A stretch of DNA of 62,549 bases, taken from the NCBI GenBank assembly GCA_938036315.1, contig CALHPK010000023.1, forward strand, positions 1-62,549, in the 5' to 3' direction. Origin of the DNA: an uncultured bacterium. Lineage in GTDB: Bacteria; Calescibacteriota; Calescibacteriia; Calescibacteriales; Calescibacteriaceae. Shown one piece after another: positions 16,848-41,324 of the stretch. Each line of letters starts with the position of its first letter. The first letter of the stretch is position 1. The notes beneath the pieces are model-generated. The model was not told the origin of the DNA, ran no database searches, and saw nothing but the letters and a program-made list of their open reading frames with translations. Both the position numbers and the translations under genes were made by a program.

Positions 16848-17468
16848 ATGACGGATAAAAAAAATATAACTTTCTATCCTTCTGATAAGTTAAAATCTCT
16901 TGTTAAGAAACTTATGATGTTTCCAGGAGTTGGTGAGAGGACAGCGATGAGATTTGCTATATTTTTATTGCAGGCTCCAAAACATTTTGTCGAAGGTTTG
17001 GCACGAGACATTATCACAGTAAAAGATAAAGTAAAACTTTGCTCAAGATGTTTCTTTATAGCCGAAAACGACCTATGCAGGTTTTGTGAAGATGAGACAA
17101 GGAGTAGGAGAAAAATTTGTGTAGTCGAAGGCATAGAAGATGTCATATCAGTTGAGCGCTCAGGAAGCTGGGATGGTTTGTACCATGTCCTATGGGGCTT
17201 GCTTTCAGCACAAGATGGAGCCGATGTATCTCAGCTCAAAATAAAAGAATTAATTGGACGTGTTATCTCCGAAAACATAGAAGAAGTGCTAATTATGACT
17301 GACACAAGCGTTGAAGGAGAGGCTACTGCTATGTATATAAAGAAAGTACTGTCTAAGTTTGGAGTCAAAATAACCAGACCAGCTCTTGGAATACCATTTG
17401 GCGCAGAAGTAGAATTTATGGATACCGCAACGCTACGCAAGGCTATACTATCAAGGCAAGAAGGATAA
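16848..17468 (+). CDS. recR: recombination mediator RecR
   Basis: Works with RecO/RecF to load RecA on gapped DNA. The 206-residue protein has the helix-hairpin-helix segment near FPGVGERTAMR, a C4 zinc finger (Cys65, Cys68, Cys77, Cys80: CSRCF...LCRFC), the Toprim core with VVEGIEDV and TDTSVEGEATAMY, and the C-terminal Walker-like end. Length is normal (E. coli 201). It is not next to dnaX or ybaB, its usual partners. The ATG start is supported by AAGG 8 nt upstream. Downstream lies the convergent KaiC-like gene, 39 bp away. Confidence 0.97.
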   Translation: MTDKKNITFYPSDKLKSLVKKLMMFPGVGERTAMRFAIFLLQAPKHFVEGLARDIITVKDKVKLCSRCFFIAENDLCRFCEDETRSRRKICVVEGIEDVISVERSGSWDGLYHVLWGLLSAQDGADVSQLKIKELIGRVISENIEEVLIMTDTSVEGEATAMYIKKVLSKFGVKITRPALGIPFGAEVEFMDTATLRKAILSRQEG

Positions 17469-30094: not shown

Positions 30095-31066
30095 TCACCG
30101 CTCTATTCTCTCTGGGAGAATGAATTCATATCTTTGGTGGAGTATCTTAGTTACAATTCCTCTATGCAACTTTCTTAAAAATAAGAACAAGCTCCAGATA
30201 AACGCATCATTTTTGTAATAGTATTCAACTTCTTTATATTCAATCTCCTTAAGGTTAAGCTCCGCGCAGTAGGTTCTCAAAAATTCATTTGCAAACTCTA
30301 TAAACGGCGGTATCAAATAAGTGAGTTTTTCTCTGTAAAGATTCGCAATAAGGTCTATCACAGTATGGCGAGGGTCATAGTATCTGTCAAGAACCTCCTT
30401 AAGAAAGAGTAACTTGAGCACTGAGCGAAGTATAGGTGGCATACTTTTCAAAAATAAATCCGCATTAAGTGCTTCTTTGCCATTTTTCCTGTACAATGGA
30501 GTAGTGATATCAAGATATACCAGTTCCGGATTTTCTGACAATGGTTCCTCTGGGTATTTTAAGTCCCGCACCGCCCAATTTGAAAGCTGTCCATCAATTG
30601 CTACTTTTACATCCATACTTTTAGCGTTAAAATCCCAAATCCTCTTGAGATTGATAAGAACTGATCTCAATAACTTTACGGCATTATCGATCGAAACTCT
30701 GCGTAGTATACTATTGCAGATTGAAAATTCAGGAAGCATTGGTTGAACAACATAGTATACAAACCTCCTATCGGATGTTTCTACCTTCACACCTTCGGTT
30801 TCAAGGACGTCAATCCCGATCTCGTATTTTAGTAGCTCTACGTATTCAGTTAATATTCTTTCATATCTAGCTATCTGAACATCATTTGAAAATATCGGAA
30901 GACGTTTGAATGCGAACCCCTGCAATAGCGGATGATTAATGGTAAAGACAGTACTTATCTCACCGAAACCGATTATTTTAGCGGTAATCTTGCTTTTTGC
31001 TAGAAACCTCGTATCTAACCCATCTTCAAACTCCTTCAAAATTGCCGTGTTAATGTTGAAGGACAC
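30095..31066 (-). CDS. kinase-fold-like protein of unknown function
   Basis: A 323-residue protein without a firm family name. The order of motifs resembles the protein-kinase/aminoglycoside-phosphotransferase fold: a glycine-containing strand IIGFGEISTVFTIN (like the P-loop), AFKRLPIF with Lys in the place of the ATP-binding Lys, YVVQPM as a hinge, then DGQLSNWAVRD (Asp and Asn as in the catalytic loop), and LVYLDITTPLY (Asp as in the DFG position). The C-terminal half is helical. It could phosphorylate a small molecule or lipid; resemblance to the uncharacterised DUF6206 group is my impression and not a search result. GTG start (31066). It stands alone. Confidence 0.5.
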   Translation of the reverse strand: MSFNINTAILKEFEDGLDTRFLAKSKITAKIIGFGEISTVFTINHPLLQGFAFKRLPIFSNDVQIARYERILTEYVELLKYEIGIDVLETEGVKVETSDRRFVYYVVQPMLPEFSICNSILRRVSIDNAVKLLRSVLINLKRIWDFNAKSMDVKVAIDGQLSNWAVRDLKYPEEPLSENPELVYLDITTPLYRKNGKEALNADLFLKSMPPILRSVLKLLFLKEVLDRYYDPRHTVIDLIANLYREKLTYLIPPFIEFANEFLRTYCAELNLKEIEYKEVEYYYKNDAFIWSLFLFLRKLHRGIVTKILHQRYEFILPERIER

Positions 31067-32546: not shown

Positions 32547-33084
32547 ATAATCTTCTTTAAATTTTTAATTATTTGATAAAATCAAAATTGTTAGCTTAGC
32601 AATAAATACTTTTAGAAAGCAATTTCAAAATAAATTTAATACAATCTTCATTCTCACTTCTCAAAGCTGCAGGCCATTCTTTTCAATAGTCTACTTTTAC
32701 CTTGAAATTGTCTCATCTCCGATTTGTGCCCCATATAGCACCTGATAATAAACATATAAGGACAAAAGAACTATAATAGAAAAAATACATCCTAAGCAGA
32801 AAAAATAGGGGTAGACATTAAGAATTTCCTTCACATCATATTAAGGATTTCCTTCACATCATACATCATAAATATCATCTACAAAATCAAAATAACAATA
32901 TCCATCATAATTTTGAAAAATTATAATAACACTTATTTATTATAATAAAAGAATTAGTTTATAATTTATAATTATAATTAAAATATATATATAGAAAGTA
33001 TATATAAAGAAGAACAAAATACAAATAGTGATCAGAATAATAGTTAATTAGAATACTTTTAAAATAAAGGAGGTTATTGAGCGG
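32547..33084. other. 540-bp AT-rich intergenic region
   Basis: Gap between two divergent genes. The left part has no gene or RNA that I can see. The right third (about 32930-33050) is almost pure A/T with runs such as TATAATTTATAATTATAATT and repeated TATATA, so it contains several possible -10 boxes. A 23-bp tandem duplication is at 32817-32862. AAAGGAGGT at 33066-33074 is the ribosome binding site of the next gene. No DnaA-box cluster (TTATCCACA) was found, so it is not called as an origin. Confidence 0.6.
32817..32862. repeat. 23-bp tandem duplication
   Basis: Two adjacent units (32817-32839 and 32840-32862), both beginning ATTAAG and ending CCTTCACATCAT, differ at one base. A further ACATCAT follows at 32862-32868. 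Confidence 0.92.
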
Positions 33085-33657
33085 GTGGAAAATAAGTTAC
33101 TAAAAAAGGAAGAGCCAACCTTTGCAGATAGGGTTAAGATATTTGAGGAATTCAGGCAATTGAAAAATAAGGTTTTATCCTCTGAAGATTTTGCCGAGGT
33201 TAGCATAAAAGATAAAAGAACCGGAGAAACAAAAAAGAGAAAAATCCTCCTCAAATCTGGATGGAGAAAAATAAAGATATTCTTCGGTATATCAAGCGAG
33301 ATACTGGAAATGAAAAGAGAAAAAGACGGGGATAAGATAATATATATGTGTAAAGCAAAAGTATATACACAGTCTGGGGTTTCAGCAGAAGCAGTTGGAA
33401 TATGTTCTTCTGATGAACCTGGTAAACTTAATATGCCAGAGTACGTATTATCTTCGATAGCTCAAACCAGAGCTATAAATAAAGCCATTGCAGATCTGGT
33501 CGGAGCAGATTTCGATGAAGATGTAGACGAAGACATAGAAAGCTATGGAACCCCCTCTTATCAGCACCAACAAAGAACCTATTCCTATCATCATCAAAAA
33601 AAACAATCACAGTCCGCTACGCCGTCAAAAAAAGAAGACGAATCAAATTTCTTCTAG
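33085..33657 (+). CDS. conserved-domain protein A with SSB-like acidic C-terminal tip
   Basis: A 190-residue protein of no named family. Starts at GTG 33085 with a strong ribosome binding site (AAAGGAGGT, 33066-33074). The core (about 50-150) has LKSGWRKIKIFFGIS, then a strand-rich part, SAEAVGICSSDEPG and the helix LSSIAQTRAINKAIADLVGA. The core is shared with the protein at 40560-41324 (minus strand). From about 150 to the end the sequence is low-complexity Gln/Ser/His/Tyr linker, closing with the acidic-hydrophobic tip EDESNFF. Core, disordered Gln-rich linker and acidic C-terminus ending in Phe is the layout of bacterial SSB, so an ssDNA-associated role is inferred. It does not have the OB-fold sequence of SSB itself. 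Confidence 0.65.
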   Translation: MENKLLKKEEPTFADRVKIFEEFRQLKNKVLSSEDFAEVSIKDKRTGETKKRKILLKSGWRKIKIFFGISSEILEMKREKDGDKIIYMCKAKVYTQSGVSAEAVGICSSDEPGKLNMPEYVLSSIAQTRAINKAIADLVGADFDEDVDEDIESYGTPSYQHQQRTYSYHHQKKQSQSATPSKKEDESNFF

Positions 33658-33663
33658 CTTCAG

Positions 33664-34152
33664 ATGAAATTCAAAAGAATTATCTATCTACTCATCGTTC
33701 TTATTACCCTTACCGACATAAGATTCATCATCTACCCAGAACTATCCAAATATTTTGATCTGAAGGCAAATTTGAAAACCCTTGAACAGCAATACAAAGA
33801 ACTTATGGAACAGAAAGAGGCTATCCTTGCATTAAAGGACAAAATGAGAGATTTGAATTCCAAAATATCAAGGATACAAAACTTCCAATTAGCGGATTAT
33901 TTTCCCGAGATCATAAGAATGGAGAAAAAATCCGAGCATGAAGTTTGTTTTTCCCAGTTCAACTGTTTCATACAGGAAGATGTTTACTTTGAAACTGCTC
34001 TAAGCTTTATAGATCTTGTTGCATTCTTTAAAGAATTTTCCCAATCAAAAGAGCTTGTTCTGTTCAAAAGCATCTACCTTGAATCAGGATATAAAGAAAA
34101 TATAAAAACATCAATATCAGCTCAAGTTTTTAAGAAGATAACCAAACAGTGA
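33664..34152 (+). CDS. PilO-like or GspM-like small membrane protein
   Basis: A 162-residue protein 6 bp after the preceding gene. One membrane helix (about 5-20), then a coiled-coil stretch (about 35-75: LKTLEQQYKELMEQKEAILAL), then an alpha-beta segment with SFIDLVAFFKEFSQSKELVLF, recalling the PilO/GspM ferredoxin-like fold. The family call is by architecture only. It would suit the inner-membrane platform of a pilus or secretion system, as does the gspL/gspM pair 5 kb away. Ends 22 bp before the convergent large surface-protein gene. Confidence 0.5.
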   Translation: MKFKRIIYLLIVLITLTDIRFIIYPELSKYFDLKANLKTLEQQYKELMEQKEAILALKDKMRDLNSKISRIQNFQLADYFPEIIRMEKKSEHEVCFSQFNCFIQEDVYFETALSFIDLVAFFKEFSQSKELVLFKSIYLESGYKENIKTSISAQVFKKITKQ

Positions 34153-34174: not shown

Positions 34175-37100
34175 TCATTTCATAAAGAGCCTGATCACAT
34201 CTCCTCTAAGTACATCAAGTAAGAAAATTATATTCTTTAATCCGCGCATATACGTAATATCTTTGGCTCCTATTCCATAATTTGGAACAGCTCCAAACAA
34301 AGATATTTCACCTTTATTTCTTACAAAATCTGTTATATCAAGGGCGAGCAAAAGGGAAAATGGTATATCAGGTTGAGATGATGTGAAAATCAAAAAAGCT
34401 ATTTCAAGACCTGCAGGATTACCAAAAAATTCATCAATTACATTAGTAATCAGCACTCCCGAGACCTCAGGATACATTCCTAAATAGAAGCTGAATTCTT
34501 TTATTTTGTTCAGATTATCATCAAAGGTTCTTACATCAAGAAAGTTCCCAACCTGAATAAATTCATATAATACACCTTTATAAAAGTAGAGTAACCCTCC
34601 CCCTTCCCCTTTCTTACTCATCATTACTCCAGAGTTACCCACAATATGCAGAGTCGACGGCGTACTAACAAATACCTTTAGATTTCCTCCTTCATATGAA
34701 TGAATAAGGATGGAATTGATAGATTCATCAAATTTGAGTCTTGTGATTTCTGTTAGAGAAAAATCAGACGTATCGAGCAGAAATAGAAACAGTTCAGCAC
34801 CAGGGACTTGGCATTTTGTTCCAGATAATGCTATAACATATTTATTGCCAAATTTTTTTACTGAAAAAACATTTATACTGTGAGCACCAAAGTCGCTGTA
34901 ATGCTTATACCTTTTTACTTTTCTTACCTTCTCTAGCATGCTATAGACGACCAGTCCCGAGAAATTATCAGGCTCCCCACAGCCAGCTTTCTGAAGTACT
35001 CCAACCAAAATCTCACCATCATAAAAGTGGTAAATCAAATCATATCCCAGATCATACACTATATCTCCCTGAAGATTTATAACCTTAGGATAGATGTGAT
35101 CTTTTATGTGAGAAAGCTCACCTTTATTGTTAAACTCTAATACATCAACCCCTCCTTTACCCCCAACCGCCAAAATCAGATTTATCCCATCCTGAAATCC
35201 AGAAAATCTGAACGGTTCATAAACTTGAAAAGATTCTATATCAAGAAGTTTCATCAGATTTGATGAAGCGGATGCATTAAATATAAATCTTGGATTACTT
35301 AAAATTACCGTTTCTCCATTAACAAAGAGCAAATTTTTCACTCCCTGGGGCAATAAAATGCAATTTGTGTTCATATTCTTGACCACAGTGGAGGATGAAA
35401 AGATGAAAGGATACAAAGCTGTCCTGATACACCCACGATCCGCCAGATCCATACAGAGTGTAGAAACTATACAAAGATTACCGGGACACAAAGAAAAATT
35501 TTGTGATACTATAAAATCGTATATATTTAATCTATAGCGGTTCTGATCTAAAAGAGCACAGATTTCTGTATCTGGTATATCTCCGATAACCTCGGGCATA
35601 CTTATTCCCAAAACTCTGTCAACAGTAGAACAACTCCCCCTAACTACACAACTTTCAATATCAAGAATATATGACCTAAACCCTATCCCTCTTTTTGATT
35701 GGTCAAGATTATCTCCAGTTGATATAAGAAGATATACTTTCCCTCCTTCCGAGAAAAAATCAAGCTTTGCTGGAGCGTAATTAATTAAAAATTTGAACTT
35801 TTGAGGTATCTCCTGCGGAAGCCATAGAGCAAACTGAGAATAATAAGTCAGATTGAACAGATAGCCGACTATTTCATAATTTTCTGGTGAAAAATACGCT
35901 ACATAAAAAGTATCTTTGTAAGCGAAAACGGAAAAAGGGCGAGAAAACGGAAAATCTAAGCTTCTTATAAAACATACATTCCCATCTCTATCGGGAGGGT
36001 AAAACGGACAAACTGCAAGAATTTTTTCAAAAAAGAAAGCAATAAATGTCACTTTACTGTCAAAGGATACAAGCTCAGCTTCGTCAAATTGCCTGACTAC
36101 CTTATATGGTAAACTCCAATTAATCACCCCAGATGGTGTAGCAGGAAATATATACAATTCTGTTGGAACTTTATACAGGAGGAAATCTCCTGCACCGCTT
36201 CTTGCAAATTTTACTCCGATCCCGCTGATTCCCAAAGATGTTGCTCCTTGGATGAAAAAGTTGTTGTTCTCGATTCCATATTCAAATAAAAATCCCTGTT
36301 TTGCCAGTACTAGTTTTGTTGAGCTATCGAAAAATTCGGCAGTGAGTAAAGTAGGCTGTTCAATGGATACGAGTTCTACAGTTTGAAACTGCCTCATAAC
36401 ATACACTGGTTCAAGATTTGAACTTTCACAAACATTTCCCCCGTCATCAAAGACCCTAACTTTTGGTGTGTAGATTCCAATCTTGTTATATGTGAAAGTA
36501 AAAGTTGGTTCATCCGTCTCTCCATCTGGGGAGAAATCTTTACCTTGATAATCTGCATCCCACTCAAACTTGAATTCGCATTTTCTACCCTGGACATATG
36601 GTACTCCTAAGGTGTGAGAGAAACTTCCGCATCTATCATCTGTTACTAGTGCGCCGAGCTGGACGGGGAAAGGTGGCAGACTTATAGGAACTCTTCCAGA
36701 TGGAGCTACAAAATAAATTCTGACTTCGCATGGTTTGTTACTGTAAACTATTACATCGGCTTTTGCTGATTGCAAATTTCCAGCACTATCTTCGACATCC
36801 ACTGAGAATTCGAAAATCTTCGCAACTTCACCTATATAGGTGAGCTCATACTCAAAAGAAATCTCAAAATATCTCCTTTCAGAGCTTATGGAACCATTAA
36901 AAGTAGTGCGGTCTACTTCATCTGTAAAACTTCCATCTTCCACTATTTCCTTCTGATATATCTGAGATTTTTCAAGATTTATTCTAACTTTTTCTATAGG
37001 GACCACACTTTCTGCCGTGACGGATATGGTAAAAAAGGCCGGTGATATTCCTGAAATTGGGCTCACATAGACTTGAACCTTTGGTGGTGAAGAAAATTTT

Positions 37101-37186
37101 CTTTCAACTCCACATATTGCAAGGACTGCGGTGAGTGCTAATGCGGAGATAAGTATTATTATGGCTATGATGCTTTCTTTTTTCAC
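34175..37186 (-). CDS. large membrane-anchored exported protein with Ig/PKD-like domains
   Basis: A 1003-residue protein. GTG start at 37186 (MKKESIIAIIILISALALTA...): a basic start and a hydrophobic helix act as a signal anchor or cleaved signal. Residues about 35-260 hold Ig-like/PKD-like beta domains (VQVYVSPISGISPAFFTISV and FEWDADYQGKDFSPDGETDE followed by TFTFTYNKIGIYTPKVRVFD, a typical PKD end). The rest is strand-rich repetitive sequence that could form a beta-propeller, with several Cys pairs (for example CSTVD, CPGNLC). Function is unknown; a surface or adhesin role is inferred. The gene begins only 6 nt after the 3' CCA of tRNA-Pro, with no ribosome binding site. Confidence 0.72.
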   Translation of the reverse strand: MKKESIIAIIILISALALTAVLAICGVERKFSSPPKVQVYVSPISGISPAFFTISVTAESVVPIEKVRINLEKSQIYQKEIVEDGSFTDEVDRTTFNGSISSERRYFEISFEYELTYIGEVAKIFEFSVDVEDSAGNLQSAKADVIVYSNKPCEVRIYFVAPSGRVPISLPPFPVQLGALVTDDRCGSFSHTLGVPYVQGRKCEFKFEWDADYQGKDFSPDGETDEPTFTFTYNKIGIYTPKVRVFDDGGNVCESSNLEPVYVMRQFQTVELVSIEQPTLLTAEFFDSSTKLVLAKQGFLFEYGIENNNFFIQGATSLGISGIGVKFARSGAGDFLLYKVPTELYIFPATPSGVINWSLPYKVVRQFDEAELVSFDSKVTFIAFFFEKILAVCPFYPPDRDGNVCFIRSLDFPFSRPFSVFAYKDTFYVAYFSPENYEIVGYLFNLTYYSQFALWLPQEIPQKFKFLINYAPAKLDFFSEGGKVYLLISTGDNLDQSKRGIGFRSYILDIESCVVRGSCSTVDRVLGISMPEVIGDIPDTEICALLDQNRYRLNIYDFIVSQNFSLCPGNLCIVSTLCMDLADRGCIRTALYPFIFSSSTVVKNMNTNCILLPQGVKNLLFVNGETVILSNPRFIFNASASSNLMKLLDIESFQVYEPFRFSGFQDGINLILAVGGKGGVDVLEFNNKGELSHIKDHIYPKVINLQGDIVYDLGYDLIYHFYDGEILVGVLQKAGCGEPDNFSGLVVYSMLEKVRKVKRYKHYSDFGAHSINVFSVKKFGNKYVIALSGTKCQVPGAELFLFLLDTSDFSLTEITRLKFDESINSILIHSYEGGNLKVFVSTPSTLHIVGNSGVMMSKKGEGGGLLYFYKGVLYEFIQVGNFLDVRTFDDNLNKIKEFSFYLGMYPEVSGVLITNVIDEFFGNPAGLEIAFLIFTSSQPDIPFSLLLALDITDFVRNKGEISLFGAVPNYGIGAKDITYMRGLKNIIFLLDVLRGDVIRLFMK

Positions 37187-39569: not shown

Positions 39570-40514
39570 TTATTGACAAGGATTTATCAACAATTCATAA
39601 AGATATAAAGATGGGTAGAAAATTCCAACCCTACTTTTTGAAAGAAAAGAATTGAATTTAGCTATGAATTTTGGCAGATTGATCGTCTTTATTGTTCTTA
39701 TCATAGGATCTATATTTGATACTTTAAAAGCTTGGTAGATTTGGTATTTCGTTATAGTTTTATTTACTTCAGACTCCAATTTTATCTTAACCAATGATAC
39801 AAAATAATGTACGAGCAATTGCATAAGAGGTTCAAAAGTATCGTCTCCAAGATATTTCAGAGCATTTGAATCTCCCATAAGTAAAGAAAGAGCTGTATTG
39901 CGGAGCCTCTTCGGATTCTCATAAGATACAACGGAAAGAATATCGCTTTTCCATATATATGTTCTTGGATATGCGAATAAAACCGCTTTATTCACAATCC
40001 TCTCTACATCAATAGAGAGCTTTATAAGGTTTATTAGTTCTTCATCGGCATCTTGCATAAATTTTACTCCCTGAAACCTACTTTTGATCATTGAAAGCAC
40101 ACTCTGTGACTCGTAAGATATCCAGACTAAATAATCCCTGAAATTATCCTGTATGATACGTGGCAAAGGTTTGGTCTCAGTTCTCAGAATCAAGACAGAA
40201 TCAAATTTATTTCTCTTTACTAATTTCTGTACACTTGAAACTATTTCTGATATTTGAGCTTGAGACGGAGAAACGGTTTCGATGTCGAAAACCACTACTT
40301 TCTTAACAAAGATAAAATCCATATTGAAGAGAGCTTGTACAATACTTTCTTTTGGTGAAGATATAAACTGAACTTGTACGTTTTTTCCTAAATTTTCCTT
40401 GATTATACAGATGAATTCTTCAAGAAAAATTTTTGGACAATTAGCAAAGATATAAAACGGTTTCAACTTTTTGCCACTGAGCTCAGCTACTACAGATTGA
40501 AATGATCTTGTCAT
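39570..40514 (-). CDS. HolA-like (DNA polymerase III delta subunit) protein
   Basis: A 314-residue protein with the layout of the clamp-loader delta subunit. It opens KKLKPFYIFANCPKIFLEEF, matching HolA (LLYGDEPYLIEE type), and then a strand-helix ATPase-like part without a Walker motif, as delta lacks ATPase activity. A central domain contains LRNTALSLLMGDSNALKYLG. The C-terminal helices (IYQAFKVSNIDPM, FIAKFNSFLSKSRVGIFYPS) resemble the delta collar. Sequence similarity is weak, so the call is moderate. It is 45 bp downstream of the paralogue B gene on the same strand. The gene ends AT-rich without a clear terminator. Confidence 0.55.
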   Translation of the reverse strand: MTRSFQSVVAELSGKKLKPFYIFANCPKIFLEEFICIIKENLGKNVQVQFISSPKESIVQALFNMDFIFVKKVVVFDIETVSPSQAQISEIVSSVQKLVKRNKFDSVLILRTETKPLPRIIQDNFRDYLVWISYESQSVLSMIKSRFQGVKFMQDADEELINLIKLSIDVERIVNKAVLFAYPRTYIWKSDILSVVSYENPKRLRNTALSLLMGDSNALKYLGDDTFEPLMQLLVHYFVSLVKIKLESEVNKTITKYQIYQAFKVSNIDPMIRTIKTINLPKFIAKFNSFLSKSRVGIFYPSLYLYELLINPCQ

Positions 40515-40559: not shown

Positions 40560-41324
40560 CTACATAACACTCTTTGATACTTCCTCCTTGAGTATTTTCA
40601 GAATTTTCTGGAGTTCATCATCTTGCAGGCTTGCAGAGCTGATGATTTCCCTTCCTACAATCTTGGATACATATCTTTTCTTCTCTTCCGGAGTTTTAAG
40701 CCCGAGTTTATTCATAAGTTCACCAATTTGTAAGAATATTTCTTTTCGTGTTATGCTATCAAGCTTCTTTGTAGGTTCCAATGGTTTTATAACTTGAGAA
40801 TAAAATCCTATCTCCCCTTCAAGCTTCTTTTCTGCTCTTTCCCAAGTTTGAATAATCTCATCTTTTGGAATTTCTGGAATCTCCTGCGATAACACCTTCT
40901 TTTTCTTTCTTATGAGAAATCCTTCAACCTCTTCAGCGGATAGTTCTCCGATTCCCGTAAGATATGAAATAGCTCTGTTGAAGGCTCTTGTTTGTGCAAG
41001 GCTAGACAAGAAGTGTTCGCTCTTATCTTGAAGGAACGGTTCATCTGAGGATGCAACACCTTCTGCTTCCGAAATGCCTCCTCCCTGCGAGGATACCCTA
41101 ACAATGTACTTCCATATAACCTTCCCATTTACCTCCTGCCTCTCAGAGTGCTTTATCTCATACGAAACATCAAAATAAGATGCGACCTTTACCCAACCAG
41201 CCCTATTCAAATACTCTCCTCCATCAATGACCTCTAAATCATTAGCGGTAAGTAATGATTTTATTTTCTTAAATCTTTCTATTTTGTTTTTCTCGTCAAG
41301 CATACTATTAAAATTAATCAACAA
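40560..41324 (-). CDS. conserved-domain protein B, paralogue of the 33.1-kb gene
   Basis: A 254-residue protein whose core (about 35-130) matches protein A: NRAGWVKVASYFDVS corresponds to LKSGWRKIKIFFGIS, GISEAEGVASSDEP to VSAEAVGICSSDEP, and LSSLAQTRAFNRAISYLTGIG to LSSIAQTRAINKAIADLVGA. From about 140 it has its own helical extension (ELSAEEVEGFLIRKKKKVLS onwards) ending in DDELQKILKILKEEVS. It lacks the SSB-like tail. Its family has no name I can give. Its neighbour is a HolA-like gene and this supports a DNA replication or repair role. Start is ATG 41324. Confidence 0.65.
   Translation of the reverse strand: MLINFNSMLDEKNKIERFKKIKSLLTANDLEVIDGGEYLNRAGWVKVASYFDVSYEIKHSERQEVNGKVIWKYIVRVSSQGGGISEAEGVASSDEPFLQDKSEHFLSSLAQTRAFNRAISYLTGIGELSAEEVEGFLIRKKKKVLSQEIPEIPKDEIIQTWERAEKKLEGEIGFYSQVIKPLEPTKKLDSITRKEIFLQIGELMNKLGLKTPEEKKRYVSKIVGREIISSASLQDDELQKILKILKEEVSKSVM

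Follow-up and report, generated by a model that had tools for sequence, protein, structure and literature searches.

Rad52 pairs single strands of DNA in repair, and the Rad52 type of single-strand annealing protein (SSAP) displays a fold of five elements, comprising a three-stranded antiparallel β-sheet, a crossing helix, a second helix, a β-hairpin and helix 1 (PMC9870868). In lambda Red-beta, the C-terminal domain (CTD) binds lambda exonuclease and SSB (PMC8303780, PMC7496540), with K214 and K253 being important in SSB binding (PMC8303780), and a shared C-terminal domain of the Red-beta kind has already been reported across several SSAP families in Firmicutes (PMC8093625). The phage T7 protein gp2.5 is also classed among the SSAPs (PMC8093625), and the title of a work cited in a further report (PMC9917605) describes its terminal Phe as important.

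The locus presented here encodes two proteins, A and B, within a window of 62,549 bp (the whole stretch of DNA analysed), which belongs to a 1.87 Mb genome related to Candidatus Calescibacterium and other hot-spring bacteria (Table 1). A and B are most likely paralogous SSAPs of the Rad52 fold superfamily, forming a chromosomal pair with an SSB-type tip on A, in which the fold is a predicted one and annealing is the activity to which this fold and the gene neighbourhoods of the relatives point.

Table 1. Features of the A/B locus in window coordinates
Feature	Position	Strand	Basis
Protein A, complete gene, 190 aa, GTG start	33085..33657	+	Translation; orthologues in all five Calescibacterota genomes
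A core, residues 13-140	33121..33504	+	AlphaFold2, Foldseek, VIA
A tail, low-complexity Gln/Ser/Tyr/His-rich linker	33505..33633	+	pLDDT, composition, orthologue comparison
A tip EDESNFF, SSB-type acidic tip, terminal Phe	33634..33654	+	Conserved ends ENFF/SNFF/IIF
HolA-like gene beside B	39570..40514	-	Single copy in five genomes; hhalign
Protein B, complete gene as listed, 254 aa from TTG	40560..41324	-	Translation; orthologues in G002, G003, G004
B core, predicted Rad52-type fold as in A	40953..41303	-	pLDDT about 95; Foldseek; BLASTP with A
B C-terminal domain, predicted Red-beta-like	40563..40757	-	Foldseek prob 1.00, 26% identity to 6m9k; VIA

The gene pair and its C-terminal regions

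The translated frame of A contains GWRKIKIFFGIS and LSSIAQTRAINKAIADLVGA and terminates in EDESNFF, with the core, linker and tip named in the initial annotation all present. The linker, first described as Gln/Ser/His-rich, comprises six Ser, six Gln, four Tyr, four Lys and three His in residues 150-183 (n = 34), a description that is fair once Tyr and Lys are added. The orthologues display a helical-looking C-terminal stretch before the tip, part of which can be aligned with the C-terminal domain of B. In the A protein of the window this stretch is gone, a low-complexity linker stands in its place and the tip is kept (DESNFF), so the linker is a local replacement. A search behind A for a degraded C-terminal domain in another frame found no remnant. 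A long antisense frame (33051-33461, minus strand) overlaps A and constitutes a trap in automatic annotation, since it seems conserved by BLASTP only because it shadows the codons of A. Directly behind A, the interval 33664-34152 (plus strand) encodes a small membrane-anchored coiled-coil protein, kept there in two relatives (25-34% identity) and absent there in the other two.

B is encoded by a real gene, though on the minus strand; read on the plus strand, 40560-41324 is full of stops. Translation more likely begins at the ATG at 41303 than at the listed TTG. The core that B had been said to share with A is recovered by BLASTP (68.6 bits, E 7e-19, 39% over 100 aa), a match far beyond chance, and at the sequence level the two cores are clearly homologous. 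The C-termini, on the other hand, differ as first proposed: A displays a disordered tail with an acidic-Phe end, residues 146-190 having pLDDT below 50 in the AlphaFold2 model and being predicted as disordered, whereas B is predicted to carry a three-helix domain of the Red-beta kind.

The tip of A is preserved across the five genomes as ETENFF, ETENFF, EEENFF, KEEIIF and, in the window, DESNFF, with Phe as the last residue after acidic residues in every orthologue, and the tail conservation on which the initial annotation depended is thus observed. The SSB of the same genome, encoded on another contig, ends in SDDSDLF. A terminal Phe with at least three acidic residues among the preceding eight occurs in nine of 481 distinct ORFs, a sample drawn from the examined loci in which such ends are thus rare; seven of these nine are family members, the genome's SSB or an ERF protein that shares the tail. 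Acidic residues, a terminal Phe and a disordered tail, features of SSB C-terminal tips, are all found in A, which suggests an SSB-type tip through which A may bind partners.

Residues 193-254 of B match the Red-beta CTD by Foldseek, and VIA aligns this domain to 6m9k, 8tg7 and 8tfu with Z-scores of 8.3-8.6 and rmsd values of 2.1-2.3 over 61-62 residues, a comparison to be read with the caveat that small helical domains may match by chance. The matched Red-beta structures include complexes with the SSB C-terminal peptide. By an ungapped structural match, K214 and K253 of Red-beta correspond to L209 and E248 in B, with Lys residues one or two positions away (K210 and K246). A weak RecT-like match of the B C-terminus among the PHROG families (E 0.023), of little strength alone, agrees with the fold comparison, and the domain is predicted to be Red-beta-CTD-like.

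A different reading of the tip takes it as a sliding-clamp binding motif, which would have A and B process the lagging strand alongside the clamp loader. Ends of the DLF or NFF type can resemble short clamp motifs, and in the window a distance of 45 bp separates B from a HolA-like gene. The HolA-like protein gives a moderate match to a true HolA profile by hhalign (prob 85, E 6e-6, 238 columns) and no match to the Pfam HolA model PF06144; the gene probably encodes the divergent DNA polymerase III delta of this lineage, as judged from this profile match. The proximity first reported stands for the window, but the two genes are adjacent in two genomes only (G000 and G002); a conserved B-HolA operon was therefore dropped, and the linkage carries little weight. 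With this adjacency lost in the other genomes, the Gln-x-x-Leu pattern missing upstream of the tip, and an acidic run with a free terminal Phe that fits SSB tips, including that of the genome's own SSB and the EDELPF end of a viral relative (L057), the clamp reading is unlikely, and an SSB-type tip is the preferred assignment.

Predicted fold of the cores

The family of A and B is undescribed in the profile libraries searched. Neither protein is covered by any Pfam or NCBIfam model, none of 24 family members matched the Pfam SSAP families (including Rad52_Rad22 PF04098, ERF, RecT/Red-beta and Sak3) at E 0.1, and a PF04098 search of the five Calescibacterota genomes was negative. In PHROG, A and B match families of unknown function, and sequence searches of the PDB with A, the family profile and the C-terminal domains returned nothing meaningful. 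The profile search of the shared core envisaged in the initial annotation likewise failed to connect the family with six bacterial Rad52 proteins (hhalign prob 0.4). Missing profile links are usual between annealase families.

The fold was approached through AlphaFold2 models built from alignments of the 24 family members, in which most of both cores exceeds a pLDDT of 90 (about 86-98 in the A core and about 95 in the B core). Both models comprise, in order, a helix, a β-hairpin, a helix, a three-stranded sheet and a helix, and as predicted they agree with the Rad52 annealase fold in all five elements and in their order. Foldseek against the PDB places human RAD52 on top with probability 1.00 (E 1e-5 for A and 2e-5 for B); for each model the first 26 matches are human RAD52 chains, followed by yeast Rad52 and Mgm101. 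VIA aligns A to RAD52 with Z 10.6 and rmsd 3.9 over 137 residues, and B with Z 9.5 and rmsd 5.0 over 118 residues. The TM-scores to RAD52 are modest (0.24-0.65, mostly below 0.5), and the unrelated ribosomal protein S5, with its β-β-β-α arrangement, reaches Z 8.8 for A, about 2 Z units under RAD52, so the fold match taken alone is suggestive and not final. The S5 and NTF2-like rows in the search with A were judged to be matches to a common arrangement and were discounted because RAD52 scores higher and across more residues. Matches in a viral library are led by phage proteins that are uncharacterised and by others labelled RecT, ERF and Rad52.

A Rad52-superfamily fold is thus predicted for both cores, the structural comparison pointing to the fold of annealing proteins, with RAD52 on top, and not to an unrelated one. 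Two proposals of the initial annotation are modified accordingly: (i) the SSB-like architecture is retained for the tail but not for the core, which follows a Rad52-type model without an OB fold and has no PF00436 match; and (ii) the A-x-T-R-A helix, said to recall annealing proteins, falls on the last helix of the predicted Rad52-type fold but by profile it matches none of the known annealase sequence families.

The resemblance of the β-β-β-α part to ribosomal protein S5 and dsRBD folds also suits a Rad52-type core employed in some other nucleic-acid task, such as binding or annealing RNA or acting structurally at the replication fork, in which case the tip of A would be a general acidic tail that cuts non-specific binding. 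Consistent with such a role, the chromosomal A and B genes have no recombination genes next door, and the core of A is conserved like that of a housekeeping protein. RAD52 and Mgm101, however, are the best and most complete matches, with all five elements, and the relatives in viruses and on plasmids belong to modules for recombination and replication, where they replace an ERF annealase, which makes this other task quite improbable and favours annealing as the likely activity of the cores.

Relatives, inheritance and genomic setting

Homologues of the A/B core occur in methanogen viruses, halovirus HSTV-1, phages, IMG/VR contigs and Leptospira plasmids; a viral scan with B alone as query gave no match, and alignment-based scans did find viral relatives. 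PD-(D/E)XK nucleases adjoin the homologues at four loci (L012, L031, L069 and L075) and MCM proteins at two (L021 and L024), the HSTV-1 homologue is near PCNA and MCM, and Sipho_Gp157 is among the neighbours. An annealase beside a nuclease is the classic layout of a two-component recombinase. The A and B genes themselves have no adjacent nuclease.

The Leptospira plasmids carry an ERF annealase (PF04404, 4e-24) and a member of the new family that share a tail (47% over 144 aa), both proteins ending in PAVSDDEEDLF, and the two genes have similar neighbourhoods. That a single SSB-type tail is joined to annealase cores of two different kinds is evidence for both the annealing core and the SSB-type tip of the model. 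Together with the predicted Rad52 fold and the nuclease and helicase neighbours of the relatives, this exchange with ERF upholds the original suggestion of a pair of single-strand-annealing-type proteins. One Leptospira plasmid homologue (L069:3498-4379, plus strand) ends in EEDFPY in place of the DDEEDLF of its relatives, with an apparent frame change in the tail. At a viral locus (L021:3700-4704, plus strand), a single 334-residue frame carries an MCM N-terminal and OB region that continues directly into an HNH endonuclease domain, which looks like a homing element interrupting the helicase gene.

In the bacterial family, A is present in five of five genomes and B in four of five, and outside it the profile matched in two of 285 genomes, in one of them weakly. 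The tree of the cores resolves A as one supported group and B as another, spanning three genera, and every relative in this tree from outside Calescibacterota is viral or plasmid-borne. From these sequences, the pair appears to be vertically inherited in Calescibacterota chromosomes. That A and B are domesticated leftovers of a prophage recombination module with a minor cellular role is, in spite of the viral nature of the nearest relatives outside the lineage, decidedly unlikely, given single clades across three genera, an identity of up to 85% between genera in the core of A, and no phage genes recognised beside A or B in the window.

Other genes in the window include recR at 16848-17468 (plus strand; NCBIfam recR, E 1.7e-59), a DUF6206 family protein at 30095-31066 (minus strand; E 2.7e-29) and a 1003-residue protein at 34175-37186 (minus strand), for which the only match is a weak one to a PKD domain. 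RecO is short and divergent in this lineage (G000:C2:127992-128414 at L089, and L090-L093), with NCBIfam RecO matching the N-terminal part only and Pfam RecO_C absent in all five genomes. A role for A and B as a stand-in for RecO, suggested by the missing RecO_C, was rejected, as NCBIfam RecO found the short RecO in all five genomes, above the cut-off in G000. Since RecA, RecR, SSB and the short RecO are all present in the cell, there is no obvious gap to fill, and A and B probably add to the RecOR route rather than replace it.

Proposed mechanism and comparison with described systems

As paralogous annealing proteins, A and B would oligomerise on ssDNA via the core, by means of its three-stranded sheet and its A-x-T-R-A-x-x-[KR]-A helix, hold the strand with its bases outward and then anneal the complementary strand, while their C-termini would set where annealing occurs. 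The three-helix domain of B may dock on SSB or a nuclease, as in Red-beta, and the flexible tail of A would present its acidic-Phe tip to the class of pockets that reads SSB. By offering an SSB-like tip to such pockets, A would recruit, or be handed to, SSB-interacting repair proteins, possibly including B. It is plausible that A and B bind different putative partners, as first suggested.

A bolder and doubtful version envisages a chromosomal two-annealase system of Calescibacterota in which the Red-beta-like domain of B, along with SSB-reading repair proteins of the cell, recognises the SSB-mimic tip of A, strands being handed mutually between A and B; on a wider scale, the two would belong to an unnamed Rad52-superfamily family, present in a single bacterial phylum as well as in archaeal viruses, phages and plasmids, that repeatedly gains SSB-type tips (in Calescibacterota, in Leptospira and on a viral contig).

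The analysis offers a likely function for proteins that are blank in Pfam, NCBIfam and PHROGs, whether they come from archaeal viruses, phages or spirochaete plasmids or from a thermophilic phylum that branches deeply. The Rad52 superfamily, whose best-known members belong to phages and eukaryotes, would also gain a pair that is chromosomal and vertically inherited. With an SSB-type tip recurring on an annealing core, it becomes possible to test directly how annealases gain access to DNA coated with SSB, and thermostable annealases could serve as tools in recombineering and strand-pairing assays.

Among described systems, human RAD52, yeast Mgm101 and the bacterial Rad52_Rad22 family (PF04098) share with A and B the order of the five fold elements and provide the best structural matches; K133 of A and R117 of B, in the last helix, would lie at or beside K152/R153 of RAD52, a placement read from the ends of the alignment. 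They differ in sequence (12-22% identity, no Pfam match and no profile-profile link) and in their C-termini. Lambda Red-beta resembles B in the three-helix C-terminal domain, whereas its SSB-contact lysines are missing at the matching positions of B, and for the annealing core the fold search gives RAD52 as the nearer of the two, ahead of Red-beta. The ERF annealases (PF04404) are connected through the Leptospira plasmid ERF, which has the tail and tip of a new-family member and a similar gene neighbourhood, but their core is unrelated by sequence, BLASTP aligning the tail alone. Finally, SSB and phage T7 gp2.5 display a flexible acidic tail with a terminal Phe, as A does, and use it in partner recruitment; both are built on OB folds, whereas A carries the same kind of tail on a core without one.
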